NCBI GenBank assembly: GCA_033220425.1
Contig: CM065653.1
Coordinates: 1,736,001-1,800,000, forward strand
Direction: 5' to 3'
Source of the DNA: Lepraria neglecta
Lineage: Eukaryota; Ascomycota; Lecanoromycetes; Lecanorales; Stereocaulaceae
Length of the DNA stretch: 64,000 nt
The notes under the pieces were generated by a model, which searched no databases, was not told the origin of the DNA, and saw only the letters and a list, made by a program, of their open reading frames with translations. Made by a program: the position numbers and the translations under genes. This document shows, piece after piece, positions 18,768-62,300 of the stretch (the first letter of the stretch is position 1; every line of letters starts with the position of its first letter).

Positions 18768-19179
18768 TGTTACGAACGGTGCGTTCCGGTATCGTATTCG
18801 TGATTGATTCTCAATGGGGATGGAGGTGCAACAGAGCAAGAGGGTGAAGCAGGCTTCAAGTGATGCTAAGCGGGTCTGGTATATGATCAGATGATATATG
18901 TTCAGTGCCTAGCCTAAGAGATCTATCGCATGTAATCAAGTACAAGGTAAGATACGAAGTTGAGCACGATGCTCCAAGTGGTGAGCAGTGCTCCGCATAT
19001 ATAGCAATAGGAAATCCATGCCAAGCATTCATGTTTAAACGAGTCGAGCATCGATTCGTATGAACCATGTCCGCGTCGAACGAGTCGAGCATCGATTCGT
19101 ATGAACCAGACCCTGCTAAGCCCATGCTAGTTCGTGCGCCCCTGGCGCGTTCCTATTAGCATATTCTTGGCTCGTAATA
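18768..19179 (-). repeat. Element A 3' LTR
   Basis: 412 bp, starting TGTTACGAACGG and ending TAATA (the RIP form of TAACA). It contains a 41-bp tandem duplication (CGAGTCGAGCATCG-type unit, about 19,040-19,120) that the 5' LTR at 40,256-40,626 lacks, which explains the 41-bp length difference. It retains many C and G where the interior copy has T or A. On its right side it is followed by the complement of a polypurine tract (TAGCTCCCTCCTCC). Confidence 0.88.
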
Positions 19180-19796
19180 TTAGCTCCCTCCTCCAGAATC
19201 CTCGTCCCGAGGATAAACTGCCATCCTTTATACCTCGCCCAAAAACAGATAACCTATCTAAGTTAGCAATTAGAAGGCAGCGTATCCTCGCTAGTTCGAG
19301 CGCCGCGGTCGTCGTTATACGAAAGTATAAGTATTATATTCGTCGTGAGAAGGAGTGTCGTATTAGGACCGAGTCGGAATCGTGCGTGGAGTGTGTATCG
19401 TCTGGGCTGTCGTGTAAGCTTGCCTTCTCCGAGGCCAAGCTCCGCTGTATATAAAAGAAACGTCGTAAAAAGATGGTTATACTGCGCGAAGTGCTCCGTA
19501 AGTAGAACGAGCTTGCTACGCGTACTATAAGGCTAAACTATAAAGTAGAAAAACTTGAAGAGGAAGAAGATACGTTGGTGCGTCGCGAACTATAGAATAT
19601 TAAGGAGGTAGAGCGCGACGAAGCTACTCCGCCGCTTAACCCCGATAAGCTGATGTTTAACGTATTGTCCGAGCGTTTCGATCTGCCCGACGGTTTGGAT
19701 ACCCCTGAGGGGTTCGACTGGTTATCTCTCGTCTCCGATAGTACTCTTATAGATATTCTCTATAGTTCCCCGCAAGGTTCCCCGCAAGGTTCCTAG
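19134..19796 (+). pseudogene. Element A antisense ORF with Zn(II)2Cys6-type domain
   Basis: This frame lies on the strand opposite to element A's pol, between pol and the 3' LTR. From 19,326 to 19,415 the residues Y-x2-Y-x6-C-x8-C-x2-C-x6-C follow the exact spacing of a fungal Zn(II)2Cys6 binuclear cluster. The first two Cys are TAT, the RIP product of TGT. The second half reads SCVECVSSGLSC. Upstream is a conserved LPSFIPR block. Downstream come a charged helix (KVEKLEEEEDTLVRREL) and a conserved C-terminal block (LMFNVLSERFDLP, FDWLSLVSDSTLID, SSPQGS) ending at TAG 19,794. A stop occurs at 19,453 and another near 19,503. It was probably a transposon-borne regulator with a Zn cluster and a coiled coil; the function is inference. 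Confidence 0.7.
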
Positions 19797-20652
19797 GTAT
19801 TTTCCGTTTTATTATACCCTTTCTATTTAACTAGATAGAACTAATTCCTTCTATCTAGGATCCTCTCGACCTTATACTCTATTTCTTCTTCGATATTATA
19901 ATAAAACGTCTCTTATAGCGATATATTAGGGTCTACTAGTTCTAAGAGTAAGATATAGAATATAGAATATACCTTAGCGTTAGATAGTAGTTAGAGTTTA
20001 TAGTTAATAGATCCTTTTACCTACTTAACTAAGAATAGTCTAACCTTAATATAATCTAGTTTCTTATTTAGTCTTATTATTCTTATATTCTTTATTAGGA
20101 GGTATACTTTATCTCTCTCTTTTAGCTAAGGAATATTCTTTCTCTTCTTATTAATCTATTCCTTTAACTTATTATTCGAGCCTTTAATAGACCTTTATAT
20201 CTCCTTATATAAATCTTTTAGCTTCTCTATCTTAACTAAAACCTTTTCTATATTAGATCCCTTTCTTAGATCTAGAAATATATTTATATTCTTTTCGTAG
20301 TTAGTAAAGAATAGTATTAGTTCTATTATATCTAACCTCTTATTATTATATACTAGTTATACTATTAGAAATAGTAAAACCTAGTTATCCTATTTCTAGT
20401 TTATATAATATCTTAAATATACTTCTATTATTTAATTTATACGTTCTATTTATCTATTAGTTTATAGATAATATACTATTAATATCCGAAGTTTAGTTCT
20501 AATTACTACTATAAGTATTCTCTAGTAGTTAGATATAAATAGCTTATCTCTATCGGATATTATTAATTTAGATATACTATAATCTCTTATTAGTTTATCG
20601 AGTAGTATAAAGGCTAACTAATCTACTTTATAGATTTCTTTAAATAGTATTA

Positions 20653-21626
20653 TCTTTCTTCTAATAATATATTATCGCGATATTCGGAGCAATTCCGCAC
20701 TTGTAGCCAATTAGAATGGCCCTATACTTCCCCCCTGATAGTACGCTTTTCGGCCTAGCGCCTTCAACTACCAAAACTTGAATTCGCATCGCAACTTCTT
20801 CGCAGTACTTCCCCGCGCCACATACGTTATATAATATCGAGATAATTTCATAAGTTTTGGAGTCAATTATTAGCTTGCTTGCGCATCAAGAATTTTTAGA
20901 ATCGGCCCATTTGCGCAATAGTTATGAGCAAAAGAAGCGTTTTCGCCATGTTTTACATGCACCAGCTCGGTGGCAAATGCCAAGCATTGAGCTGAATGCG
21001 CACCGTAACTTCTTTGCAGTATTTCCCCGCGCCACATACGCCATATGATATCGAGATGATTTCATACGTTCTGGAACCAAGCATGCGCTTTCTAACACCG
21101 TCAAAATTTTCAAAATCGGTCCATTTACGCAAAGGTTATGAGCAAAAGAAGCGTTTTCGCCATGTTTTTCTGGCGGTGCCAGATGCCAAGCACTGAGCTT
21201 GGCGCCCCCGGACCCTGGAACATCAAAAGTTGAATGCGCACTGCAACTTCTTCGCAGCAATGCCCCGCGCCACATACGTCATATGATATCATCATAATTT
21301 CATGCGTTTTGGAACCAAGCATGCGCTTTCCAACGCCGTTCGAATTTTAAAATTTGGCTAAGGTTTGGCTAAGGAAAGCTCAAAAAACATGTTTTTGCCT
21401 GCGGACTTCCCTGAAGCTTCCCCCGCAGCCGCCCCCCACGCACTAATATACTAAATCCTTAATAACTTTTGCCATATTAGGATTAGGGCTTAACTTTATA
21501 TATATAAAATATACTATAAATAGAGGGCTTTTCAATTCCGCTTAAATCTTCTAAATCGAGTGTAAAATAAGCGAGATATAGCCGTTTTTACGGTAATCTT
21601 CTGTGAAGATTACGGGCACTCACTTG
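20653..21626 (+). mobile_element. Helitron-like element, copy 1
   Basis: 974 bp inserted in element A. It starts TCTTTCTTCTAATA and ends with the hairpin GTAATCTTC-TGT-GAAGATTAC (21,593-21,613), followed by 13 bases ending CACTTG. The base before it is A and the base after it is T. Alignment with the intact site in element D (near 60,190) shows no target duplication. Three direct units of about 215-240 bp lie inside, marked by AACTTCTTYGCAG at 20,793, 21,007 and 21,245. There is no coding capacity. It is less AT-rich than the Gypsy DNA around it. Confidence 0.65.
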
Positions 21627-26300: not shown

Positions 26301-27840
26301 CGATAGCGTACCTCGACGATATCTTAATCTACTCTAAGAATAAGGAAGAATACGTTAAGTATATATAGGACGTTATCGAATACCTATTATAAGCGGGACT
26401 TCTCCTTAAACCGGAAAAGTGCGAGTTTTATAGGGACTCTATTAAGTTTCTAGGGTTTATAGTTAGTATAAAAGGTATTAGTATAAGCCTAGAAAAGATT
26501 AAAGCTATAGTAGAATAGCCTATACTATAGGACGTCAAAGTAGTATAGAGTTTCTTAGGATTTACTAACTTTAATAGGAAGTTTATTAAGGGCTATTCTA
26601 AGAAAGCACTTCTACTTATAGATATTACTAAGAAAGATATCGGATTTATATAGGGATATAAATAATAAAAGTCGTTCGAAACGTTAAAAAGAGTATATAT
26701 AGATCCTCTAGTACTCTATACCTTTCAAGCTAATAAATCGGCTTATATCGAAATAGATACCTCGGATCTTATAATAGGAGTATATCTTTATTAAATAAAG
26801 AACTAAAAGTAGTATCTAGTTACCTACTTTTCACGAAAGATATTAGTAGTAGAATAAAACTATAATATACACGACAAGGAACTACTTACCGTAGTATACG
26901 CACTTTAGAATTAGAGGGTGTACGTAGAGAGCTACTTAGACTTAACTATCTTTACGGACTATAAGAATCTTCTTAACTTTATAACAACGAAAGAGTTAAA
27001 TAGGAGATAAGTTAGATAGTTAGAATTACTCGGATAATATAAGTTCAAAATAACCTATACCCTAGGAAAGGATAATAGTCGAGTAGATACGCTTAGTAGG
27101 CAATCGGACTATATAGAAGAAAAGAACGTTACGGAATAACTAATCCTAAAACGAGAAGCCGACGGATTATTAGTACTATACTAGGTATTAGTAATAACCC
27201 TTTATATATTAGGATCTAATACGACGGATAGGATTATAAAGGCCTATAACAACGATATATTCGTAATAAAGCTATGACAGGATTAACCGGATTCAGTATT
27301 ACTTAAATATCGGGACAAAATTTACTTACCTAATATATATATTAAAGAAGTAATTAGAGATTACTACGATGACCCTTTATAAGGTTACCCTAGAGTATCC
27401 AAAACTATAGAACTCCTAGGAAGGGGATACACAGCGCCGAAGCTTCGGATATACGTCGAATAATATATTAAAGAATATATCTAATACTAGTAGAATAAGT
27501 CTACACGATATACAAAGTACGGGTAGATATAGTTTACTCTAGTACTAGAGTTACTATAGGATAATATTATAATAGACTTTATAGTCAAACTACTACCCTC
27601 GAAGGACCTAGCTATATAGGATACCTTCAATTCAATTATAGTTATTATGGATAAACTTACTAAATATACGATTATAATACCGTTCAAGGAGATATATAAA
27701 GTAGATTAATTAGCTTTTATACTACTCGACAAGCTAATAAGGGATTATAGTATACCTAAGTCGATAATATCCGATAGAGATAAGCTATTTACTTCTAACT
27801 ACTAGAGAACGCTAATCGCAATAATTGGAACTAAACTTCG

Positions 27841-28253
27841 TGTTAGAACCAGAAGGTTCTGATAGGACTGTCGCGAAGGATATATAACTTCGGACAGGAT
27901 AGGCAGGTAAAGCGATGATCGTAATGATCGCAATACGAGCAATACTATCAAGAATGATGATCGTAATGATCGCAGTGCGAGCAATACTATCAAGAGTGCT
28001 TGGCAGGATTTCTTATATCTATATATACGGGGCCTTGCCTACTATTTGGAACAGCGTGTTCAACTTGGTTAATCTTCCTGGTACTCCTTGCACTATACCT
28101 TACTAGTTATCAACATAGAACGTATTAGTTACCTACACACAAGAAGACTACCATTCTACCTGAGTAACTCCTCTCCCACAGAAGCATAAGATATACGCAA
28201 CCTATACCTAGTTATCGCACCGTTAGGTAAACGATCGGATATAGGTCGTAACA
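27841..28253 (+). repeat. Element C 5' LTR
   Basis: 413 bp, starts TGTTAGAACC and ends GTAACA. Two tandem units of about 41 bp (27,911-27,993) carry GATGATCGTAATGATCGCA, corresponding in position to the GAGCGC repeats of the B and E LTRs. Confidence 0.92.
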
Positions 28254-31200: not shown

Positions 31201-33420
31201 AGAATATATTAAGTATATATAGGACGTTATCGAATACCTATTATAAGCGAGACTTCTCCTTAAACCGGAAAAGTGCGAATTTCATAGGGACTCTATTGAG
31301 TTCCTAGGATTTATGGTTAGTATAAAAGGTATTAGTATAAGCCTAGAAAAGATTAAAGCTATAGCGGAATAGCCTATACTATAAGACGTTAAAGCAGTGT
31401 AAAGTTTCTTAGGATTTGCTAACTTTAATAGGAAGTTTATCGAGGGCTACTTAAAGAAAGTACTTCTACTTACGGATATTACTAAGAAGGGTATCGGATT
31501 TATATAGGGATAAGAATAATAAGGGTTGTTTAATACATTGAAGAAAGTATATACGGACCTACTAGTACTCTGTACCTTTTAAGCTAACGAACCGGCTTGT
31601 ATCGAAATAGATACCTCGGATCTTGTAATAGGAGTATACCTTTATTAAATGAAGGACTAAAAGTAGTATCTAGTTACCTACTTTTCACGAAAGATATTAG
31701 TAGTAGAATAAAACTATAATATATACGACAAAGAATTACTTGCTGTAGTATATATACTTTAAAATTGGAGAGTGTATATAGAAAGCTACTCGGACTTAAC
31801 TATCTTTACGGATTATAAGAATCTTCTTAATTTTATAATAACGAAAGAATTAAATAGAAGATAAGTTAGATAGTTAGAACTACTCGGATAATACAAGTTC
31901 AAAATAACCTATACCCCAGGAAAAGATAATGGTCGAGTAGATGCGCTTAGTAGGCGGTCGGACTATATAGAAGAAAAGAATGTTACGGAACGACTAATCC
32001 TAAAACGAGAAGCCGATGGATCATTGGTGCCATATCAGGTATTAGCAATAACTCTTCGTATATTAGGACCTGATACGACTAATAGGATCGTAGGGGCCTA
32101 TAATAACGATATATTCGCAATAAAGCTGCGACAGGATCAACTGGATTTAGTGTTGCTTAGATATCAGGAAAAGACCTACTTACCTGATGTATACGTTGAA
32201 GAAGTAATTAGAGATTACTACGATAACCCTTTATAAGGTTACCCTGGAGTGTCCAAGACTATAGAACTCCTAGGACGAGGATACGCAGCGCCGAAGCTTC
32301 GGACGCGCGTTAAATAATATATTAAGGAATATATTCAATGCTAGCAGAATAAGTCTGTACGACACGCTAAGTACGGGCAAATATAGTTTATACCTATACT
32401 AGAATTACTATAGGATGATATTATAATGGACTTTATGGTTAAACTACTACCTTCGAAGGATCCAGCTATATAAGATACCTTCGATTCAATTATAGTCATT
32501 GTGGATAAACTCACGAAGTATATAATTATAATACTATTCAAAGAGATATATAAAGCGGACCAATTAGCTTTTATACTACTAGATAAGTTGATAAGGGATT
32601 ATAGTATACCTAAGTCGATAATATCCGATAGAGACAAGCTATTTACTTCCAACTATTGGAAAACGCTGATCGCAGCGATTGGGACTAAACTTCGGATATT
32701 AATAGTATACTATCTATAGACTAATAGATAGACGGAGCGTGCTAACCAAATAATGGAAGTATATCTAAGATATTATATAAACCTGAAACAAGATAACTAG
32801 GTTTCACTGCTTCTAATAGTATAACTAGTATATAACGACAAAAAATTAGACACGACAGGTCTAATACCATTCTTTGCCAACTATAGAAAGAATATAAATA
32901 TATTTCTATAACCTAGGGACGGGCCTAATATAGAAAAAGCCTTAGTTAAGGTAGAAGAGCTAAAGAATTTATATAAGGATATATAAAGGATAATTAAGAG
33001 CTCTAATAATAAGATAAAGGAATATATTAATAGTAAAAGAAAGAATGTTCCTCAGCTTAAAGAGGGGGATAAAGTATACCTCCTAATAAAAAATATGAAG
33101 ATAACGAGACTAAGCAAGAAATTGGATTACGTTAAAGTTAGACTATTCTTAATCAAGAAGGTAAAGGGGGCTATTAACTATAAACTCGAGCTTCTACTTG
33201 ACGCCAAAGTATATCTAGTATTCTATATCTTACTTCTAGAGCTAGTAGACTCTAATATACTACTCTAAGAAACGTTTTATTACGATATTAAGGAAGAAAT
33301 AGAGTATAAGGTCGAGAGGATCCTAGATAGAAGAAATTAGTTCTATCTAGTTAAATAGAAAGGGTATAATGAAACGGAGAGTACCTAGGAACCTCTTAGG
33401 AACCTTGCGGGGAACTGCAG
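28254..33420 (+). pseudogene. Element C gag-pol polyprotein remnant
   Basis: Plus-strand frame with, in order: gag (open stretch 28,452-28,682 with YLRGRAQKWVEPFLKKY), a zinc-knuckle remnant near 29,101-29,145 in which some Cys and His codons read as Tyr, and protease DSGAT (Asp codon at 30,089). Reverse transcriptase follows with KLDLRGIYNLI and an intact YLDD at 31,163-31,174, then RNase H. Integrase has its open N-part at 32,024-32,236, then the DDE residues in MDFMVKL, SDRDKLFTSNYW and a later Glu. A C-terminal chromodomain lies at about 33,298-33,400 (KVERILD, KGYNETEST). Stops sit at former Trp/Gln codons; no frameshift was noticed. Confidence 0.85.
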
Positions 33421-33971
33421 GGAACGCCTACAAGAGTTTTATCAGAGATAAGAGAAGACTAGTCGAAGCTCTCAGGGACTTCTATCCTATTAGGGAGATC
33501 GAACTACTCGGACAAGACGTTAAACATTAAATTATCAGGAGACTTAGGAGCGACGCGTTGGTCCTCCTCTAATTCCTTTATATTCTACAGCTCTCAGTCT
33601 ACTATATTCTTCTTCTCCTTCTTAGCAGAATTCAACTATACCTAAAGGCGTACTAATTTTACAAGCGCATCGGTGACCTCCTCACGCAACTCGTTGCGCC
33701 GCTTTTCAACATGACGTATTTCAAGGGGCGACACCACAAGGTCGCACTTCCGGCCACTAGTAACACAACTCGAATATCTATCGGAATTAGTACCTATAAG
33801 ATACTATTTACTATTGGTAACATATCTGGAGCAAGGTCGCATGACGAAGTCGGAAAGCTTACAGGCCAGCTCCTTCGAACGGATGGCTAGATTAGACGAT
33901 CTTTTAGTACGAATAGGTGGTATAAAGGATGGATGGTTTCTCGGGACGAGAAATCTGGAGGAGGGAGCTAG
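33396..33971 (-). pseudogene. Element C antisense ORF with Zn(II)2Cys6-type domain
   Basis: Antisense to pol. Reading from the 3' LTR inward: SSRFLVPRNHPSFIPP, then at 33,744-33,833 C-x2-Y-x6-Y-x8-Y-x2-C-x6-C, ending in SSCVTSGRKC. Here three of six Cys are kept and three read TAY. A basic/helical part with EKRRNELREEV follows, then NIKELEED, LMFNVLSE and SSLISDKTLVG. TAA at 33,396-33,398 follows SSPQGS. Stops at positions where relatives have Gln or Trp fit RIP. The 3' end overlaps the end of the chromodomain in a convergent arrangement. No intact start codon can be fixed. Confidence 0.75.
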
Positions 33972-34384
33972 TATTAGAACTAGAAGGTTCTGATAGGACT
34001 ATCGCGAAGGACATATAACTTCGGACAGGACAGGCAGGTAAAGCGATGATCGCAATGATCGCAATACGAGCAATACTATCAAGAATGATAATCGTAATAA
34101 TCACAGTGCGAGCAATGCTATCAAGAGTGCTTGGCAGGATTTCTTATATCTATATATACGGGGCCTTGCCTACTATTTGGAACAGCGTGTTTAACTTAGT
34201 TAATCTTCCTAGTACTCCTTGCACTATACCTTACTAGTTATCAATATAGAACGTATTGGTTACCTATACACAAGAAGACTGCCATTCTACCTAAGTGACT
34301 CCTCTCCCACAGAAGCATAAGACACACGTAACCCATACCTAGTTATCGCACCGTTAGGTAAACGATCGGACGTGGGTCGTAACA
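33972..34384 (+). repeat. Element C 3' LTR
   Basis: 413 bp, the same length as its partner. The differences I compared are transitions. It is preceded by a polypurine tract (GGAGGAGGGAGCTAG). Confidence 0.92.
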
Positions 34385-35090
34385 CTTCGGATATTAACAG
34401 CGTACTATCTATAGACTAATAGGTAAATAGAACGTATAAACTAAATAATAGAAGTATATCTAAAATATTATATAAACTAGAAATAAGATAACTAGGTTTC
34501 ACTACTTCTAATAGTATAACTAGTATATAATAATAAAAGGTTAGATATAATAGGACTAATACTATTCTTTACTAATTACGGAAAGAATATAAATATATTT
34601 CTATAACCTAGAGAAGGACCTAATATAGAAAAAGCCTTAGTCAAGGTAGAAGAGCTAAAGAACTTATATAAGGATATATAGAAGATAATTAAGGGCTTAA
34701 ATAATAAGTTAAAGGTATAGGTCGACGGTAAAAGAAAGAATATTCCTTAGCTTAAAGAGGGGGATAAAGTATACCTCCTAATAAAAAATATAAAAACAAC
34801 GAGACCGAGTAAGAAACTAGATTATATTAAGGTCGGACTATTCTTAATTAAGAAGGTAAAGGGGGCTATTAACTATAAACTCGAGCTTCCGCCTAACGCC
34901 AAAGTATATCCGGTATTCTATATCTCGCTCCTAGAGCTAGTAGACTCTAATATACTACTCTAAGGAATATTTTATTATAATATTAAGGAAGAAATAGAGT
35001 ATAAGGTTAAGAGGATCCTAGATAGAAGAAATTAGTTCTATCTAGTTAAATAGAAAGGGTATAACGAAACGGAAAGTACCTAGGAACCTC

Positions 35091-35708
35091 TTAGGAACCT
35101 TGCGGGGAACTATAGGGAATATCTATAAGAGTTTCATCGGAGACAAGAGAAGACCAGTCGAAGTTCTCAGGGCCTTCTAAGCCGGCGGGGAGATCGAATT
35201 ACTCGGAGCTAATATTGAATATTAAACTATCGGGGGTACCGGAAGGGAGTTCCTTATCCCTCTCTAACTCCTTAATATTTTATAATTCGTACTTAACTAG
35301 CCTTTTCTCTTTATCCTAGATATAATCGAATTATAATTAAAGGCGTATAAGTTTCGCCTGCGTTTCCTTTATTTCTAACTAAGTATTATCGCGAACTTTC
35401 TTAATACGATATATCTTATCAATAGATATAACTAGGTTATACTTCTTGCCTACAGCTATATAGTTAGAATAATAATCCGAACGAACGCCTACTAAGTATT
35501 ACTTATTACCCTTTGTATAAAGAGTATAAGGACGTATTACGAACCTAGATAGTTTACTAGAGAGTTCTTTACGACGGGTAAGGGGATCTTTAGAACGGAT
35601 AGATCGACGGGGAGGTATAAAGGACGGATAGTTTCTCGGGACAAGAAATCTGGAGGAGGGGGCTAGTATTAGAACCGTTGGTTCTAACAGGACTGTCCTG
35701 GAGGACAA
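35091..35708 (-). pseudogene. Element B antisense ORF with Zn(II)2Cys6-type domain (all Cys lost)
   Basis: The same architecture as in element C: VPRNYPSFIPPRRSIRS, then at 35,439-35,528 Tyr at all six cluster positions with spacing 2-6-8-2-6, then a helical region, NIKELERD, SLVSDETLID and SSPQGS before TAA at 35,091-35,093. The open part begins in the 3' LTR at 35,708. Tyr at six of six positions is what RIP of TGY codons to TAY gives; no other residue appears at these positions. Confidence 0.7.
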
Positions 35709-38955: not shown

Positions 38956-39730
38956 TCTTTCTTCTAATAATAGATTATCGCGACATTCGGAGCAATTCCG
39001 CACTTGTAGCCAATTAGAACATCCCTTTAGAGCTGCATTTCCTCTCTCGGCTAGCGCCTTCAACCACCAAAAGTTGAATCCGCTGCGCACTTCTTCGCAG
39101 TAATACCCCGCGCTACATACGCCATATGATATCGAGATGATTTCATAAGTTTTGGAGTCAATCATTAGCTTGCTTGCGCATCAAGAATTTTTAGAATCGG
39201 CCTATTTGCGCAATAGTTATGAGCAAAAGAAGCGTTTTCGCCATGTTTTTACGGGCAGCCCAAGCTCGGTGGCAAATGCCAAGTATTGAGCTTGGCGTCC
39301 CCCGGACCCTGGAACATCAAAAGTTGAGTGCGCACCGCAACTTCTTCGTAGCAATGCCCCGCGCCACACACGTTATATGATATCGAGATGATTTCATGAG
39401 TTTTGGAACGAAGCATGCGCTTTCCAACGCCGTTCGGATTTTAAAATTTGGCTAAGATTTGGCTATAGAAAGCTCAAAAAATATGTTTTTGCCTGCGGAG
39501 TTCCTTAAAGCTACCCCCGCAGCTACCCCCGAAGTGCCTCCGGAGTACTCAAATATTTAACCCTTAATAACTTTCGATATATTATAGTTAGGCTTAGCTT
39601 TATATATATAAAATATACTATAACTAGAGGGCTCTCTAATACCGCTTAAATTTTCTAAATAGAGTATAAAATAAGCGAGATATAGTCATTTTTACGGTAA
39701 TCTTCTGTGAAGATTACGGGCACTTACTTA
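38956..39730 (+). mobile_element. Helitron-like element, copy 2
   Basis: 775 bp inserted in the gag part of element A, starting TCTTTCTTCTAATAA. It ends with the hairpin GTAATCTTC-TGT-GAAGATTAC and CACTTACTTA (final G changed to A). The intact site in element D (near 63,850) reads TTAGTA-TATAGTT, so the insertion lies between A and T with no duplication. It has one internal unit fewer than copies 1, 3 and 4. Confidence 0.65.
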
Positions 39731-41028: not shown

Positions 41029-41610
41029 ATAACAGAATGGATTTTAATACCTATTTAGGTAACTAATACCGAATCGGGTAGTTAAAGGATACTTGGCATC
41101 AACTATCAAACTGTAGTTGAATACGCACCGCAACTTCTTCGCAGCACTGCCTCGCGCCACATACATTATATAATATCGAGATGATTTCATAAGTTTTGGA
41201 GTTAATTATTAGCTTGCTTGCGTATCAAGAATTTTTAGAATCGGCCTATTTACGCAATAGTTATGAGCAAAAGATGCTATGTTTTGCAGGCAGCGCGAGC
41301 TTAGTAGTAAATACTAAGTATTGAGCTTGGCGTCCCCCGGACCCTGGAACATCAAAAGTTGAATACGCACCGCAACTTCTTCGCAGCAATGCCCCGCACC
41401 ATATATATCATATAATATCGAGATGATTTCATGAGTTTTGGAATCAAGTATACGCTTTCTAATACCGTCGAAATTTTCAAAGTCGGTCTACTTAGGCAAA
41501 AGTTATAACCAAAAGAAGCGTTTTCGCCATGTTTTTTGCAGGTAGTAAAAGCTCAGTAGCAAATGCCAAGCACTGAGCTTGGCGCCCCCGGACCCTAGAA
41601 CATTGTTGAA
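41029..41610 (+). mobile_element. Helitron-like element, copy 5 (3' end missing)
   Basis: It starts TCTTCTTCTAATAACAGA after an A, like the complete copies, then diverges for about 80 bp. From about 41,110 it matches the internal repeat units (CGCACCGCAACTTCTTCGCA). The match ends near 41,605 after GGCGCCCCCGGACCC. No terminal hairpin or CTTG end follows, so it is truncated or chimeric. Confidence 0.5.
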
Positions 41611-41744
41611 TTATAAGCTTATCTATAGCTTTATATAATGGCAACGGTTTTGGTATATATAAGAGCTAGCTATATAGACAGCTCTAGGATGCAGAAATAA
41701 TCTTTGAAGCTTTACATGGTTCGGATGGTTCCAGGATACTAACC

Positions 41745-42110
41745 GCCATATCGCCATGTGCGAATAGGTAACCCGGTGCCATATCTCCATGTGCGAATAG
41801 GCAATCTGCCGCCATATCGCCATGTGCGAATGAGCCATCCGGTGCCATATCACCATGTGCGAATAGGCAACCTGCCGCCATATCGCCATCTGCGAATAGG
41901 CAATCCGGTGCCATATCGCCATGTGTCGAATAGGCAATCCAGCGCCATATCGCCATGTGCGAATAGGCAATCCGGTGCTATATCGCCATGTGTCGAATAG
42001 GCAATCCTGCCGCCATATCGCCATGTGCGAATAGGCAATCCGGTGCCATATCGCTATGTGCGAATAGGCAATCCGGTGCCATATCGCCATGAGCAGAATG
42101 GGCAATCATG
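41745..42110 (+). repeat. 33-bp minisatellite, about 11 units
   Basis: Contiguous head-to-tail units GCCATATCGCCATGTGCG followed by AATAGGCAATCCGGT. Most are exactly 33 bp; the sixth is 34 and the eighth 35 bp. Units alternate between an ATCCGGT and an ATCTGCC/ACCTGCC type end, suggesting a 66-bp higher-order unit. Because the period is a multiple of three, the minus strand has a 160-codon open frame (41,623-42,105) with a repeated MAIWHRIAYSH 11-mer. I regard it as a by-product and not a gene. It directly follows the broken end of Helitron-like copy 5. Confidence 0.85.
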
Positions 42111-42118
42111 TAGACCGT

Positions 42119-42196
42119 GCGGTACGCCTGTCTCATGCCTTATGCGATACGCCTTGTGTCATGTTTTATGCGATACGCTTGTTTTATGCTTTTCAT
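42119..42196 (+). repeat. Short tandem repeat with TATGCGATACGC units
   Basis: About two and a half imperfect copies of a 28-bp unit containing TTATGCGATACGCYTTGT, directly after the minisatellite. Confidence 0.5.
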
Positions 42197-42299
42197 GCGG
42201 AAAGCTTAGGAGTAAGCCCCAGTACGCGCACAGTCCCACTATCCGCATACCCTACCAACAACAACACGAAAAATTTCAACACCCGATATCTTAATCAAT

Positions 42300-42679
42300 A
42301 TGAGTCCAATTAAGGACGCCCTGGAGGTATTAGAATCCTAGAAGTCACTTAATTATACTACTACTGCCAGATTATTCGGTGTTAACAGGACTACACTCTC
42401 ACGGCGTTATAGAGGTATTATAGGTACTATAGACGAGAAAGCTAATAAAGCTTAATTACTTATAACGTAGTAAGAGAAAACCCTTACTAAGTATATTAAT
42501 AAGCTTATACTCCGAGGTTTTCCTCCTACTCCCGCTATAGTACGCAATTTTGCTAAAGATATCTATAAAATTAAGCCGGTAAAGAATTAGGTTTCCCGCT
42601 ATATAGAACGGAATAGGAAGGAACTCGACTTAGGATTCTAACTAGGCTTTAATCTTAATAGGAAGAAAGTAGATAATTA
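42300..42679 (+). pseudogene. pogo/Fot1-like transposase N-terminal fragment
   Basis: The frame from ATG 42,300 reads MSPIKDALEVLES, then TARLFGVNRTTLSRRYRG (a psq-type helix-turn-helix), GFPPTPAIVRNFAKDIY and SRYIERNRKELDLGF, an order typical of the DNA-binding N-terminus of pogo/Fot1-type (Tc1/mariner superfamily) transposases. Stops occur where relatives have Gln or Trp, so RIP is likely. It ends at the insertion of Helitron-like copy 3 at 42,680. I could not recognise the rest of the transposase after 43,658, so the catalytic DDE half is absent or unrecognisable. Confidence 0.72.
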
Positions 42680-43658
42680 TCTTTCTTCTAATAACAGATT
42701 ATGGCGAAATTCGGAGCAATTCCGCACTTGCAGCCAATCAGATTGGCCCTATATTCTGCATTCCCTCTCTCGGCTAGCGCCTTCAACCACCAAAACTTGA
42801 ATTCGCATCGCAACTTCTTCGCACTACTTCCCCGCGCCACATACATCATATGATATCGAGATGATTTCATATGTTTTGGAGTCAATCATTAGCTTGCTTG
42901 CGCATCAAGAATTTTTAGAATCGGCCCATTTGCGCAATAGTTATGAGCAAAAGAAGCGTTTTCACCATGTTTTGCATGTACCGCGAGCTCGGTGGCAAAT
43001 GCCAAGCATTGAGCTGAATGCGCACCGTAACTTCTTTGCAGTACTTCCCCGCGCCACATACGTCATATGATATCGAGATGATTTCATAAGTTTTGGAACC
43101 AAGCATGCGCTCTCCAATACCGTCGAAATTTTCAAAATCGGTCCATTTGCGCAAAAGTTATGAGCAAAAGAAGCGTTTTCGCCATGTTTTTCTGGCGGTG
43201 CCAGATGCCAAGCACTGAGCTCGGCACCCCCGGACCCTGGAACATCAAAAGTTGAATGCGCACTGCAACTTCTTCGCAGCAATGCCCCGCGCCACATACG
43301 TCATATGATATCATCATAATTTCATAAGTTTTGAACCAAGCATGCGCTTTCCAACGCCGTTCGAATTTTGAAATTTGGCTAAGGTTTGGCTAAGGAAAGC
43401 TCAAAAAACATGTTTTTGCCTGCGGAGTTCCCTGAAGCTACCACCGCAGTCACCCCCGAAGTGCCTCCGGAGCACTCAAATATTTAACCCTTAATAACTT
43501 TCGATATATTAGGGCTAGGACTTAGCTTTATACATATAAAATATACTATAAATAGAGGGCTTTCTAATCAGGCTTAAACTTTCTAAGTAGAGTATAAAAT
43601 AAGCGAGATATAGTAGTTTTTACTGTAATCTTCTGTGAAGATTACGGGCACTAACTTG
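42680..43658 (+). mobile_element. Helitron-like element, copy 3
   Basis: 979 bp, starts TCTTTCTTCTAATAACAGA after A and ends with the hairpin and CACTAACTTG before T. Three internal units are marked by AACTTCTTYG at 42,812, 43,029 and 43,267. It is inserted at the end of the pogo-like fragment. Confidence 0.65.
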
Positions 43659-44357
43659 TTAGTAGATAATAGATTATTATAGAATTGAGGAAAGTATAGT
43701 TAAATAACCCGTAAAGAAGTTGAAGAAGGATTAGTATAAATACGAGTTAAATTTATATTGATATTACTAATAACAAGCTTTTATATACTAAAGGAGCTAT
43801 CGATAGTAGCTATATTTTAAACGGATTATATATATAGAAGACTTTATTTAGATTCGACTACCTATTTATATCTTGTATAGAAGATATATAGCTACTAATT
43901 AGTAGAAATATATAGACTATATAAGAAGTAATCAATTATAATAAAAGAAAACTGGTAACTATATATTAGTAGCGTTATATTATTAATTGAGCTAATAGCT
44001 AGCTAAACGTATAATAGATATACTAATTAGTTAGATATTATACTAACAGTAACATCTAATTACTAATTGGTTAGATATTATACTAATAGTAATATCTAAT
44101 TACTAATTGGTTATATATTATACTAACAGTAATATTTAATTACTAACTAACCTAACATCGTTAAATCAGTAGTATTGAGTTACAGATCGAGCTGATTTGA
44201 TACTATTAGCAATATTGAGTTACTGATTCCGCTGAACGTAACTATCAGCCCTACCGGCGCGCTCGGCAACTCGGGATTTCCTAGTAACTTTTGGGAAAGC
44301 GCGATGTAGTAGGGTTAGTAGTAGATAGGGAAGAGATAATAGGCTTAGTCGACGATA
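43659..44357. other. AT-rich spacer with a 40-bp tandem array
   Basis: About 700 bp of TA-rich, probably RIP-affected sequence between two Helitron-like copies. It includes the tandem array at 44,021-44,150. No gene is seen. Confidence 0.45.
44021..44150 (+). repeat. 40-bp tandem repeat, 3.25 units
   Basis: Units of exactly 40 bp beginning TACTAATTGGTTAGATATTA, at 44,021, 44,061 and 44,101 with a partial fourth at 44,141. Each unit contains partly self-complementary TTAGATATTATACTAA, so the array can form hairpins. Confidence 0.8.
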
Positions 44358-45392
44358 TCTTTCTTCTAATAACAGACTATCGCGACTTTCGGAGGCATTC
44401 CGCACTTATAGCCAATCAAAGTGCTCCTATATTCAGTAGTCGATTCCCTCTTTCAGCTAGCGCCGCCAAGCAAGAACATCAAAATCGAAAAACGTATCGC
44501 AACTTCTTCGCAGTACTTCCCTGCGCCACATACGTCATGTGATATCAAGATGATTTCATAAGTTTTGGAGCCAATCATTAGCTTGCTTGCGCATCAATAA
44601 TTTTTAGAATCGGCCCATTTGCGCAATAGTTATGAGCAAAAGAAGCGTTTTCGCTATGTTTTGCAGGCAGCGCGAGCTCGGTGGCAAATGCCAAGCATTG
44701 AGCTTGGCGTCCCCCGGACCCTGGAACATCAATAGTTGAATGCGCACCGCAACTTCTTCGCAGCAATGCCCCGCGCCACATACGTCATATGATATCGAGA
44801 TGATTTCATGAGTTTTGGGACCAAGCATGCGCTTTCTAATGCCGTCAGAATTTTCAAAATCGGTCTACTTGCGCAAAACTTATGAGCAAAAGAAGCGTTT
44901 TCGCCATGTTTTTGCGGGCAGCACAAGGTCGGTGGCAGATGCCAAGGATTGAGCTTGGCGCCCCGGACCCTAGAACATCAAAAGTTGAATGCGCACCGTA
45001 ACTTCTTCGCAGCAATGCCCCGCGCCACATACGTCATACGATATCGAGATGATTTCATGAGTTTTGGAACCAAGCATGCGCTTTCCAACGCCGTTCGCAT
45101 TTTGAAATTCGGTAAATATTTGGCTAAGGAAAGCTCAAAAAACATGTTTTTGCCTGCGGAGTTCCCTGAAGCTACCACCGCAGTCACCCCCGAAGTGCCT
45201 CCGGAGTACTCAAATATTTAACCCTTAATAACTTTCGATATATTAGGGCTAGGGCTTAGCTTTATATATATAAAATATACTATAAATAGAGGGCTTTCAA
45301 ATTAGGCTTAAACTTTCTAAATCGAGTATAAAATAAGCGAGATATAGTAGTTTTTACGGTAATCTTCTGTGAAGATTACGGGCACTAACTTG
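44358..45392 (+). mobile_element. Helitron-like element, copy 4
   Basis: 1,035 bp, starts TCTTTCTTCTAATAACAGA after A and ends with the hairpin and CACTAACTTG before T. Units at 44,501, 44,751 and 45,000 show a regular spacing of 249-250 bp. It is the longest and best-preserved copy. Confidence 0.65.
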
Positions 45393-52137: not shown

Positions 52138-52243
52138 TTAGCTCCCTCTCCTAGATTTCTCGTCCTGAGAAACTATCTATCCTTTATACTACCCCGATAT
52201 ACTAAATGTTTAGATAAACCGACTATCCGCCGAACGGTATTGG

Positions 52244-52670
52244 TGTTAGAACCCTTGGTTCTAACAGGACTGTCCTGTAGGACAAGATACTATAGACAGG
52301 ACTAGCAGCTGAAGCGATGAGCGCAACGAGCGCCGTGCGCTCATAGCGCTCAAGAATGATGAGCGCAATAAGCGCCGTGCGCTTATAACGCTTATAGGAT
52401 ACTTGGTAGGGTTTCCTATGTCTATATATACGGGGCTTTGCCCGTTGTTTGGAATAGTGTATTCAACTTAGCAAACCATTCTTGGTTAAATCTTCCTGGT
52501 ATTCCTTGCACTATACTTTACTAGTTATTAATATAGAACGTATTAATTACCTACATACACGAAGACTGCTATTCTACCTGATTGACTCCTCTCCTATAGA
52601 AGTATAAGACATCTATACCTATACCCGGTTATCGCACCGTTAGGTAAATGATCGGATATAGGTTATAACA
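52244..52670 (+). repeat. Element E 5' LTR
   Basis: 427 bp, starts TGTTAGAACC and ends TTATAACA. The first 24 bases contain an inverted pair (TGTTAGAACC / GGTTCTAACA). Two tandem units of about 40 bp around 52,313-52,392 carry inverted GAGCGC and GCGCTC. Confidence 0.93.
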
Positions 52671-57812: not shown

Positions 57813-58430
57813 TTAGGAACCTTGCGGGGAACTGCAGGGAACGCCTATAAGAGTTTTATCGGAGATAAGAGAAGACTAGTCGAAACTCTTAGGGCCCTCT
57901 AGGCCGGGGAGGAGGTCGAACTACTCGGAGCCGATATTGAATATTAAACCGTCAGGAGTGTTAGAAGGAAGGTTCTTATCCTTCTCTAACTCCTTAATAT
58001 TCTATAACTCGCGCTTAACTAACTTTCTCTCTTTATTCTAAACTTGATCAAATTATAATTAAAGGCGTATAAGTTTCGCCTGCGTTTCTTTTATTTTAGA
58101 CTAAGTATTATTACGTACTTTCTTAATATAACGCATCTTATCGACGGATATAACTAGGTTATACTTCTTGCCTGCGGCAATATAGTTGGAACAACGATCT
58201 AAACGAACACCTACTAGGTATTACCTATTACCCTTTATATAGAGAGTATAAGGACGTATTACGAATCTAGATAATTTACTAGAGAGTTCTTTACGACGAA
58301 CGATAGGATCTTTAGAACGGATATTTCGACGAGGAGGTATAAAGGATAGATAGTTTCTCGGGACGAGAAATCTGGAGGAGGGGGCTAGTATTAGAACCCT
58401 TGGTTCTGATAGGACTATCCTGTAGGACAA
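57813..58430 (-). pseudogene. Element E antisense ORF with Zn(II)2Cys6-type domain
   Basis: Reads SSRFLVPRNYLSFIPPRR, then at 58,161-58,250 Y-x2-Y-x6-Y-x8-C-x2-Y-x6-Y (one Cys kept), with GKKYNLV at the end. The conserved helical and C-terminal blocks follow, with TAA at 57,813-57,815. The open part starts inside the 3' LTR at 58,430. It is convergent with, and overlaps, the end of the chromodomain. Confidence 0.72.
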
Positions 58431-58815
58431 GATACTATAGACAGGACTAGTAGCTGAAGCGATGAGCGTAACGAGCGCCGTGCGCTCATAGCGCTCAAGA
58501 ATGATGAGCGTAATGAGCGCCGTGCGCTCATAACGCTTATAGGATACTTGGCAGGGTTTCCTATGTCTATATATACGGGGCTTTGCCCGTTATTTGGAAC
58601 AGTGTGTTCAACTTGGCAAACCATTCTTGGTTAAATCTTCCTGGTATTCCTTGTACTATACTTTACTAGTTATTAATATAGAACGCATTGATTACCTACA
58701 TATACGAAGACTGCCATTCTACCTGATTGACTCCTCTCCCACAGAAGCATAAGATATCTACACCTATACCCGGTTATCGCACCGTTAGGTAAACGATCGG
58801 ACGTGGGTCGTAACA
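58389..58815 (+). repeat. Element E 3' LTR
   Basis: 427 bp, starts TATTAGAACC and ends GTAACA before the ATTGG duplication. In the first 60 bp, the differences from the 5' LTR are all transitions. Confidence 0.93.
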
Positions 58816-59371
58816 ATTGGCTAGTAAGCTAAACGAAGTTATTATACGGCTATACTCCCGATATATTGCCAGCGGCAAATAGTACCTGATAGGTATAGGG
58901 TCCGATAGGTATTCTAACTGTGTAGGCAGCGGTAGGAAATATAACCTTATAGTATCGACCCTCGAAATACGTTATATTAAGACGGAACGAAAGGAAGCGT
59001 AGTTATAGTTAAAAAATATGCGCGAAGAGCTTAAGGATTATATATAAAAATCAATAGAGGAATCTATATATCTTTAGACTATACTAATACGCCTTTAGAT
59101 ATAGTATAAATATCTTAAAAATAAAAAGCGGAAGATTATAGACTGAGAGATATAGAATATTAAGGAGTTAGAAGAAGACTAGCGGTCTATCCTAAGTATT
59201 CCTAATAATTAGATATTCAACGTCTTGTCCGAACAATTTAGCTTCCTAGCCGGAACTAATTAGTCCTCCTTCCTAATCGTTCCCGGAACTTCTATAGAAG
59301 GTCCTAGTAGTTCCGGAGGTTCTGAAGGGGTTCCTAGGTATTTTCGGTATCGTTATACCCTTTCTATTTAA

Positions 59372-62300
59372 CTAGATATTTCTAATTAACCTAATTTAGA
59401 ATCCTCTTAACCTCGAACTCTATTTCTTCCTTAATATTATAGTAAAATATTTCTTAGAGAGGTATATTAGAGTCCGCTAGCTCTAAGAGTAAGATATAGA
59501 ATACCGGATATACTTTGGTATTAGGTAGTAGTTAGAGTTTATAGTTAACTAGTCCTTTTAACTATTTAATTAAGAATAGTCTAACCTTAATATAATCTAG
59601 TTTCTTATTTAGTCTTGTCGTCCTTATATTTTTTATTAGGAGGTATACTTTATCCCCCTCTTTTAGCTAAGGAATATTCTTTCTTTTCTTATCGATCTAT
59701 TCCTTTAACTTCTTATTAGAGCTCTTAATAGACCTTTATATATCCTTATATAAATTCTTTAGCTCTTCTACCTTAACTAAGGCTCTTTCTATATTAGGTC
59801 CCTCCCTTAGTTATAGAAATATATTTATATTCTTTCTATAGTTAGTAAAGAATAGGGTTAGTCCGGTTATATCTAACCGCTTATTATTATACGCTAGTTA
59901 TACTATCGGAAGTAGTAAAACCTAGTTATCCTACTTCTAGTTTATATAATATCTTAGATATACTTCTATTATTTGATTTACACGTTCTATCTATCTATTA
60001 GTCTATAGGTAATATACTATTAATATCCGAAGTTTAGTTCTAATTGCTACTATTAGCGTTCTCTAGTAGTTAGAAGTAAATAGCTTATCTCTATCGGATA
60101 TTATTGAATATAGTATACTATAATCTCTTATTAGTCTATCGAGTAGTACGAAGGCTAACTAATCTACTTTATAGGTTTCTTTGAATAGTATTATAATTGT
60201 ATACTTCGTTAACTTATCCATAATAACTATAATCGAGTCGAAGGTATTTTATATAGCTGGATCCTTCGATAGTAGTAGCTTAACTATAAAGTCTATTATA
60301 ATATTATCCTATAGTAACTCTAGTATAGGAGTAAACTATATTTGTCCGTACTTAGCGTATCGTATAGCTTTATTCTACTAGTACTCGATATATTCCTTAA
60401 TATATTATTTAACGCGCGCTCGAAGCTTCGGCGCCGCGTATCCTCGTCCTAGGAGTTCTATAGTCTTAGATACCCCTAGGTGACCTTGTAAAGGGTCATC
60501 GTAGTGATCCCTAATTACTTCTTCAACGTATATATTAGGTAAGTAGGTCTTGTCCTAGTATTTGAGTAATACTGAATTCTATTGATCCTTCCTTAGGTTT
60601 ATTGTAAATATATCGTTATTATAGGTACCTAGTATAGTACTAATAATCTATCCGTCTCCTTCTTTAGGATTGGTCGTTCTGTAACGTTCTTTTCTACTAT
60701 ATAGTCTAATCGTCGGCTAAGGGTATCTACTCGACCATTATCCTTTTCTAGGGTATAGATTATCTTGAACTTATATTAACCTAATAGTTCTAACTATCGA
60801 ACTTGTCTTCTATTTAGCTCCTTCGTTGTTATAAAGTTAAGAAGGTTCTTATAATCTATAAAGATAGTTAGATCCGAGTAGCTTTCTATATATACTCGCT
60901 AGTTTTATAATATATAAACTATAGTAAGTAGTTCCTTATCGTATATATTATAGTTCTATTCTACTACTAATATCTTTCTTAAATAGTAGGTAACTAGATA
61001 CTACTTTTAGTCTTTCATTTAATATAGGTATACTCTAATTATAAGGTCCGAGGTATCTATTTTAATATAGGCCGGTTCGTTGGCCTAAAAGGTATAGAGT
61101 ACTAGTAGATCTATATATACTTTCTTTAATATATCGAATGATTTCTATTAGTCTTTTCCCTATATAAATCTAATATCCTTTTTCGTAATATCCGTTAGAG
61201 ATAGTACTTTCTTTAAGTAGCCCTCGATAAACTTCCTATTAAAGTTGGTAAATCCTAAGAAGCTTTATACTACTTTGACGTCCTATAGTATAGGCTATTC
61301 CGCTATAGCTTTAATCTTCTCTAGGCTTATACTAATACCTTCTATACTAACTATAAATCCTAGAAATTCTACCGACTATCGATAAAATTCGCACTTTTCT
61401 AGTTTAAGAAGAAGTTTCGCTTGCGATAGGTATCTAAGGATATCCTATATATACTCTATATATTCTTTCTTGTTCTTAGAATAAATTAGTATATTATCGA
61501 GGTACGCTATCGCTATTTAATCTAAGTATACTCGTACGATATTATTAATAAATACTTGGCAGGTTGATGGTACATTAGTGAGTCTAAACGGTATTACTAG
61601 ATACTTATAGTAGCTATATCTCGTTCGGAAGGCAGTTTTCTATTCTTCGCCTTCTTTTATCTAAATTAGATTATATATATCTCTAAGATCTAGTTTAGTA
61701 AATATCCTTGCTTTCCTAAGCTAATTCTATAGCTCGCCGATATTAGATAAAGGGTATTTATTCTTAATAGTAATATTGTTTAACTTTCGATAGTCGACGT
61801 ATAGTCTTAGGCTTCTATTCTTCTTTAGTGTAAAGAGGATCGGGTAATCTACTAGTAATTTAGATTCCCGAATAAATCCCTTTTAAGGTTCTTGTTAATA
61901 TACCCGCGAAGTACCTTGAGTTCCTTTTCTAATAATACGTAAATAGGTCCAAATATTAGCTATTTACTAGGTTCGAGTTCGATCTTATAATCCTATAGCT
62001 AGTACCTAGATAATACTTCTATATTCGTCTCTTCCTCGAATAAGTACGCCTACTTACTATATTCCCGAGGGATAGAGAGTATATTAGTTCCTCCTCTAAC
62101 TCTTACTTTATTATCCCGCTAACCTTTACTAGTAACTATAGAGTCGGACTACCTTTTAGTACCGTCTTTATACGAAGCTAAGGTAATATATATCTCGACC
62201 GGTCTTCGGTTCGACTTTTTATCTACTATTAAACGCTGCTAATACGTAGGTATAATCCTAGTAATATTGCCGGATTAATCTATCTTGAGTACTCCTCGAG

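Follow-up and report, generated by a model that had tools for sequence, protein, structure and literature searches.

An antisense gene with Zn2Cys6 cysteine spacing, inherited together with the U3 part of the long terminal repeat, in Gypsy elements of Lepraria neglecta

The stretch of DNA analysed here, referred to below as the window, comprises 64,000 nucleotides of Lepraria neglecta (contig CM065653.1, positions 1,736,001 to 1,800,000), and it contains five Gypsy retrotransposons, named elements A to E, in which a frame lies between pol and the 3′ long terminal repeat (LTR) on the strand opposite to pol. This frame is what is left of a protein-coding gene that was under purifying selection, that has conserved cysteines at six positions in the spacing of the fungal Zn2Cys6 cluster, and that is inherited together with U3, the promoter half of the LTR. 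The explanation considered moderately probable is that the antisense gene of this chromodomain Gypsy lineage encoded a zinc-cluster protein that acted as a dimer to regulate its own U3.

The Antisense Frame in the Five Elements

A sequence-only reading of the window had reported, for each of elements A to E, an antisense open reading frame (ORF) with only Cys or Tyr at six positions spaced 2-6-8-2-6, and the observation of such Cys/Tyr frames in five Gypsy elements is confirmed. All five cluster intervals (Table 1) are on the strand opposite to pol, whose orientation was taken from matches to the chromodomain region in the elements, and they translate as claimed, with Cys or Tyr at 30 of the 30 cluster positions. 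The interval 33396–33971 is exactly the frame of element C, with codons in 33399–33971 and the stop TAA at 33396–33398; the frame starts at the edge of the 3′ LTR and ends in a tail-to-tail overlap with the end of pol. Elements A, B, D and E are arranged likewise, element D without the N-terminal block. The word ORF had to be given up, as none of the five frames is open and each has 3 to 14 stops. The N-terminal and C-terminal blocks described beside the cluster are present in four of the five elements, whereas element D has no PSFIPP and its C-terminal block deviates (SSFLIVPGTSIEGPSSS). The interpretation that the lineage carried its own DNA-binding regulator as an antisense gene is partly supported: the gene stands by the evidence of selection and of relatives, and a GAL4-type fold is predicted for it, while DNA binding and regulation may be supposed.

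Element C, although damaged, is a complete Gypsy element, with two LTRs of 413 bp each that are 94% identical over 400 bp. The features of Ty3/Gypsy chromodomain elements are found, namely LTRs, a target-site duplication and the SH3_Tf2-1 domain (PF24626), which a piece of pol from copy L040 matches with 53.5 bits against a cut-off of 30; the chromodomain itself (KGYDETESTWEPLRNL) was recognised by eye and not by profile.

Cysteine Columns and Mutational Damage in the Genome Copies

The genome was searched twice with the gene: the first search gave at least 71 places, and in the second 150 of 392 candidates were scored. The best 30 of each were fetched (60 loci), and 48 of these form the alignment, six loci that were frameshifted or cut, five repeats of one place and one identical copy being left out. 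Exactly six of the 192 well-filled columns consist entirely of Cys and Tyr, encoded by TGY and TAY only (Y being a pyrimidine); the next-best column reaches 69%, and the overall fraction of Cys and Tyr is 5.2%. A change from TGY to TAY at the cluster columns is the expected product of repeat-induced point mutation (RIP). Steps of the RIP type (C>T or G>A) from the codon of another copy can account for 273 of the 297 stops, a few of the stops being the natural end of the frame, and two conserved Met columns contain ATG or ATA only (19/29 and 10/38). Some copies of the same genome, L067 and L030 among them, have all six cysteines intact.

Selection on the Antisense Frame

RIP makes transitions and not transversions, and therefore transversions record the period when the elements were alive. 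They were counted on the tree as steps between purine and pyrimidine and were sorted by the codon position of the antisense frame. Over the 192 codons, positions 1, 2 and 3 have 147, 119 and 258 transversions, a distribution that none of 20,000 permutations equalled in extremeness, and with the last 40 columns excluded the counts are still 127, 96 and 224. In the positive control, pol, the counts by position are 104, 292 and 124 (45 copies), and none of the four sets on the LTR side, the negative control (36, 21, 22 and 8 copies), has significant periodicity (P 0.22, 0.71, 0.99 and 0.07).

One sense frame has its third positions in common with the antisense frame and is about as open (4.5 versus 5.1 stops per copy). 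When the stretch that overlaps pol is excluded, third-position transversions in the antisense frame amount to 1.71 in fourfold versus 0.92 in twofold degenerate columns (P 0.0008), and in this sense frame to 1.23 versus 1.58 (P 0.92). Because the codon-position bias is joined by a fourfold/twofold contrast for the antisense frame alone, the antisense frame coded for protein; that it is a former protein-coding gene under purifying selection is well supported. The purifying selection on the antisense as against the sense frame, for which the sequence-only reading had proposed a test, is thus borne out by both the transversion and the degeneracy comparison.

Position beside pol and Public Relatives

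A search of the genome with a pol piece scored 150 of 569 candidates, and the best 40 places were followed downstream. The antisense frame was found in 40 of these 40 best-scoring places, and between the pol anchor and its matched end lie 33 to 135 bases; among the 48 copies chosen by the gene, pol adjoins it in 45. The gene therefore has the placement of the antisense genes called aORF-3R, being antisense, between pol and the 3′ LTR and present in most copies, and it is conserved as a protein.

With an alignment of twelve copies as the query, in which stops were written as X, 11 public relatives were found initially, and 59 altogether, for none of which a Pfam domain is listed; the damaged piece of element A, searched alone, gave no public relative. 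Less damaged relatives, on which the sequence-only reading had staked its case, have both the cysteines and an open frame in 31 of the 59 cases: the pattern CX2CX6-8CX8CX2CX6-8C is complete in these 31, and 28 of them have the exact spacing. The other 28 are made up of 19 predicted frames that start inside or behind the cluster and nine relatives with altered cluster cysteines. When 27 relatives were selected for being complete, five of the six cysteine positions proved invariant among them, and the remaining one was lost in a single relative (P0010).

The nine relatives with altered cysteines are P0010, P0028, P0029, P0037, P0039, P0043, P0047, P0055 and P0056, and the change is mostly from Cys to Tyr, which suggests RIP damage of the equivalent gene in other fungi. 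In P0003, P0006 and P0007 the frame continues upstream into the peptide APPxRFLVPRN, which in the window comes from translating the purine tract beside the LTR; for other organisms, these three give no more than a hint of an antisense position. No relative with genomic context was found in the viral contigs and plasmids searched. The 59 relatives form a family without Pfam annotation that is probably retrotransposon-borne.

Joint Inheritance of the Gene and U3

Distances were compared in 62 copies, of which 45 came from the gene search with pol and 17 from the pol search. They belong to five gene types, four of which are in the window: type 1 in element A, type 3 in element C, type 5 in elements B and E and type 2 in element D, the assignments of B, E and D being by motif. 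The Mantel correlation of gene and U3 is 0.80, that of gene and R-U5 is 0.23 (0 of 1000 permutations) and that of gene and pol is 0.14 (51 of 1000). For the 45 copies the corresponding values are 0.85, 0.08 (45 of 500) and, with a 750-base pol piece, 0.11 (71 of 500); the last 300 bases of this piece give 0.24 (0 of 500) and the first 450 give 0.18 (30 of 500), and a separate gene–pol test gave 0.10 (372 of 2000). As a yardstick, these two parts of the pol piece correlate with each other at 0.52.

The nearest neighbour is of the same gene type for 100% of the 62 copies by U3, 68% by pol, 40% by R-U5 and 29% after shuffling, and by this measure no recombinant that splits gene and U3 types was found among them. 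Since some association with pol remains (68% versus 29% shuffled), pol is common to the gene types, though its distribution among them is not random. Between types 1 and 3 the distance is 0.245 for the gene and 0.251 for U3, against 0.03 to 0.09 within types; for pol it is 0.036 between and 0.03 within the two. In 60-base steps their distance is 0.003 to 0.02 at the pol end, 0.25–0.46 in the gene, 0.32–0.36 in U3 and 0.11 at a TATA-like stretch recognised by eye; beyond that stretch the within-type distances are also high, and the values there say little. The pairs 1-5 and 3-5 resemble the pair 1-3, with nearly identical pol ends among types 1, 3 and 5, and type 2 stands apart, with a pol end 0.07 to 0.14 distant from that of type 3. 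Because the distances among types 1, 3 and 5 jump in the gene and U3 and stay low at the pol end, the gene and U3 are exchanged as a block over one pol, at least in these three types.

R-U5 is nearly independent of gene type, its 40% by nearest neighbour standing beside a largest shuffled value of 52%, as is expected if R-U5 comes from the other RNA at strand transfer. In the U3 of another gene type, different short repeats are found in the place of the 42-bp repeats of element C (GAGCGC in copy L081).

Predicted Structure of the Protein

The Zn2Cys6 pattern is CX2CX6CX5-12CX2CX6-8C, and its six cysteines are those of the 31 complete relatives. An AlphaFold2 model was made for one relative, P0012, in which the cluster region has a predicted local distance difference test (pLDDT) score of about 80 to 85 and the helix 66–127 is mostly above 90. 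In a fold comparison of this model, all 17 of the 17 listed entries are DNA-binding domains of PPR1, PUT3, HAP1, GAL4, Leu3, Pho7, LAC9 (which we take entry 1cld to be) or AlcR, with low Z; Leu3, Pho7 and AlcR presumably belong to the GAL4-type class. A Zn2Cys6 cluster fold is thus predicted.

The helix after the linker is predicted to be a coiled coil for dimerisation, and its length varies in heptad steps. Coil lengths could be parsed for 35 of the 59 public relatives, with P0002, P0016, P0026, P0030 and P0040, which were off by one, adjusted by hand: they are 53 (19 relatives), 54 (3), 60 (7), 67 (2), 74 (2), 81 (1) and 100 (1), and in 12 of 13 longer ones the length is 53 plus a multiple of 7. 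In the copies of the genome itself the lengths are 53 (63 copies), 60 (4), 67 (3), 71 (6) and 52 (1), of which 71 is not a heptad step. The predicted tail has a mean net charge of −6.8 in the 31 relatives, as calculated with an automatic division of coil and tail that leaves four of the 31 rows without a tail and divides a few too early.

The match to the Zn_clus profile (PF00172) that the sequence-only reading had looked forward to stays below the curated cut-off, the best printed score being 14.6 of the 21 bits needed and the best E value 0.028. A search of the whole genome with PF00172 gave at least 68 places, and among the matches listed, compared by eye, none is on an antisense-gene place. 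Several points speak against filing the protein as a Zn_clus member: RING and coiled-coil Pfam families outscore Zn_clus, yet remain below their own cut-offs; the proline before Cys4, invariant in eight host Zn_clus domains, is absent from the alignment of the antisense protein; and the first loop is only weakly basic (mean charge +1.5). In a profile comparison with the eight host domains, all six cysteines are in register (P 5e-4, probability 31%). An identity as a RING or coiled-coil protein was set aside, as all such matches stay below their cut-offs and only GAL4-type domains were listed in the fold comparison. Sequence searches of the PDB were of no help, with matches no better than BARD1 RING (E 0.39) and ribosomal eL6 (E 0.83). 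By all that can be predicted, the protein works like a zinc-cluster factor, and it is most aptly classed as a separate family that has the Zn2Cys6 spacing and the predicted fold.

Possible Function and Alternative Explanations

In the regulator explanation, the accessory gene that lies antisense beside the 3′ LTR would encode a small zinc-cluster transcription factor of about 175 residues, starting with a basic N-terminus, continuing with a GAL4-type binuclear zinc cluster and then a long coiled coil, and ending in an acidic aromatic tail; fold, coil and tail are predicted. It would be transcribed from a putative antisense promoter in the 3′ LTR; the product would dimerise through its predicted coil and bind repeated sites in U3, for which the two 42-bp copies of element C are candidates, and the bound dimer would set the sense transcription of its own element, by activation or repression. 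The gene and U3 are passed on as one unit, which in several types is combined with nearly equal pol. Self-regulation is suggested because the gene and the promoter half of the LTR are inherited jointly. A bolder version, which is tentative and rather doubtful, is that the gene and U3 are a regulator/operator pair defining regulatory groups over one replication machinery, where each protein type would recognise the repeats of its own U3 and the types would be kept apart because cross-regulation is costly, comparable to the immunity groups of temperate phages.

Three results weigh against a regulator of its own U3. The PF00172 cut-off is not reached; CGG/CCG triplets are fewer in the LTRs than in first-order resampling (73 of 98 LTR stretches placed), so that no target site can be named; and the gene lies beside U3 at the RNA 3′ end, a proximity that could by itself explain their joint inheritance. 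The last point belongs to an account of linkage only, which falls somewhat short of an even chance and in which template switching in R and near the pol end would move the RNA 3′ end as a block, without functional pairing and with an unrelated target of the protein. The distance between types 1 and 3 climbs just behind the pol end and drops near the TATA-like stretch, where template switching is plausible, and recombination at the template switch is discussed for the crapaud LTRs in the available part of PMC10787394. Such linkage explains the block, but not the upkeep of divergent types (1 versus 3, at 0.25) side by side over one pol, and it is compatible with regulation. All the coding evidence would fit equally well if a real zinc-cluster coiled-coil accessory protein served another role, such as nuclear entry, integration-site choice, nucleic-acid chaperoning or action on host genes. 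This is unlikely, though the missing enrichment of CGG triplets agrees with it and roles of this kind are discussed for plant antisense ORFs in the consulted part of PMC7264820: a factor for integration or import may be expected to follow pol, yet the neighbours of equal type are 62 of 62 by U3 and 68% by pol.

The remaining alternatives deny the protein its part. Antisense transcripts of retroelements can act as RNA (PMC7264820, from the part available), and such an RNA, silencing or counter-silencing, might be the functional product over an incidental frame; the codon-position bias of transversions, like that of pol, the conserved cysteines and start codons and the heptad length steps make this very improbable. 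It is still less credible that the true frame is the sense one located behind pol, of which the antisense frame would be a mirror, despite the common third positions and comparable openness of that frame, for the fourfold/twofold contrast favours the antisense frame and the 31 public six-cysteine proteins are read from its equivalent. Noise from RIP, that is, a chance Tyr/Cys pattern in AT-rich debris, could be thought of as every copy in the window is RIP-damaged, but it is refuted by the purity of six of 192 columns and no others, and by public relatives that keep the cysteines.

Comparison with Known Systems

Such an arrangement, of which the sequence-only reading knew no description, has precedents. 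The gene brtn is the antisense gene of Boty-like Gypsy elements in Botrytis cinerea (Zhao et al. 2011, Virology, via PMC7264820, PMC8365987, PMC4227169 and PMC5987419, each in part). It occupies the corresponding place between pol and the 3′ LTR (PMC7264820 and PMC8365987) and is alike in being an extra gene antisense to pol in a fungal element with a CHROMO domain (PMC4227169); the comparison is by description, no BRTN domain is named in the parts of these sources available, and the two may or may not be one family. Plant examples of aORF-3R are Grande gene23, RIRE2, Retand TRP28 and PvRetro13, which according to the consulted parts of the literature are likewise antisense, between pol and the 3′ LTR and present in most copies, with nuclear localisation of gene23 and predicted DNA binding of TRP28; they differ in belonging to other protein families, for which those parts name no zinc cluster. 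In the part of the 2020 review at hand (PMC7264820), aORF-3R products are said to have no clear similarity to other proteins described. In the open-access literature no account was found of a zinc-cluster protein in an antisense retrotransposon gene, nor of BRTN domains, which is not proof of absence. What is already known, therefore, is the antisense gene between pol and the 3′ LTR, and what is new is the association of five gene types with the U3 half of the LTR.

HBZ of human T-cell leukaemia virus type 1 (HTLV-1), with APH, offers an analogue: it is an antisense gene expressed from the 3′ LTR, whose nuclear basic leucine zipper (bZIP) product lowers expression from its own LTR (PMC10186651, seen in part). 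HBZ differs in being a bZIP protein of an animal retrovirus and not a zinc cluster, and no homology is claimed; by this analogy, a circuit in which an antisense protein acts on its own LTR can exist. If the protein described here acts on its own U3, it would be a fungal counterpart of HBZ.

With GAL4, PPR1, PUT3 and HAP1 the antisense protein shares the six-cysteine spacing, the predicted cluster fold, the helix after the cluster and the acidic tail, and an acidic tail is typical of many activators. It differs from them in its score below the Pfam cut-off, the lack of the loop proline, the weakly basic first loop, its small size and its encoding by a retrotransposon. We know of no fungal LTR element that encodes its own transcription factor.

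In crapaud of Podospora (PMC10787394) and in Tnt1 (PMC1838419), several U3 types likewise occur over a largely common internal region, those of crapaud upstream of the TATA box. They differ in that the available parts of these sources mention no linked gene, and the word antisense does not occur in the main text on crapaud, whereas here the U3 types are tied to gene types. If the regulator explanation is true, it would help to approach the question why the U3 regions of LTR elements such as these diversify into discrete types over a near-constant body: each U3 type would then supply the binding sites in a regulator/promoter pair. Because public relatives with intact cysteines and open frames exist, the pairing of gene and U3 is directly testable.

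Features of the Window

The features of element C and the antisense genes of the other elements are collected in Table 1.

Table 1. Positions of element C, the antisense genes and related features in the window.
Feature	Position	Strand	Remarks
Target-site duplication CTTCG, 5′ side, element C	27836..27840	+	Read in the flanks
5′ LTR, element C	27841..28253	+	413 bp, TGTTAG...TAACA; ends read from flanking sequence
3′ part of pol, element C (chromodomain region)	33241..33400	+	Convergent with the antisense gene, whose end it overlaps; equivalent stretch in the other four elements
Antisense gene, element C (type 3)	33396..33971	-	7 inner stops; TAA 33396-33398
Acidic C-terminal tail (FNVLSE...SSPQGS), element C	33399..33578	-	Predicted; last codons overlap pol; limits approximate
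Predicted coiled-coil helix after the cluster, element C	33579..33740	-	After the AlphaFold2 helix of P0012 and the heptad length steps; limits approximate
Zinc-cluster segment, element C	33744..33833	-	Cys/Tyr at 2-6-8-2-6
Codon aligned with the start Met of relatives (MPP...)	33921..33923	-	ATA in element C; ATG in 19 and ATA in 29 of the 48 copies
Purine-rich tract adjoining the 3′ LTR, element C	33957..33967	+	Read in the sequence
3′ LTR, element C	33972..34384	+	U3 half co-inherited with the antisense gene
Tandem repeat of 42 bp in U3, element C, in two copies	34045..34126	+	Candidate binding sites; units ATGATCGCA
Target-site duplication CTTCG, 3′ side, element C	34385..34389	+	Read in the flanks
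Antisense gene, element A (type 1)	19134..19793	+	pol on the minus strand, 19787-19939
Cys/Tyr cluster, element A	19326..19415	+	Spacing 2-6-8-2-6
Antisense gene, element B (type 5, by motif)	35091..35666	-	Stop TAA 35091-35093
Cys/Tyr cluster, element B	35439..35528	-	Spacing 2-6-8-2-6
N-terminal fragment of one further antisense gene copy	52138..52251	+	Frame translation
Antisense gene, element E (type 5, by motif)	57813..58388	-	Stop TAA 57813-57815
Cys/Tyr cluster, element E	58161..58250	-	Spacing 2-6-8-2-6
Antisense gene, element D (type 2, by motif)	58736..59314	+	N-terminal part without homology; pol on the minus strand, 59325-59481
Cys/Tyr cluster, element D	58853..58942	+	Spacing 2-6-8-2-6

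The frame of element D abuts an LTR match of element E (58388–58817); because of this and of the loss of its N-terminal part, element D is truncated or nested. Outside the Gypsy frames studied, direct repeats of two families, about 160 to 260 bases long and in 11 to 13 copies, are located at 20695–21407, 38990–39501 and 41117–45162 of the window.

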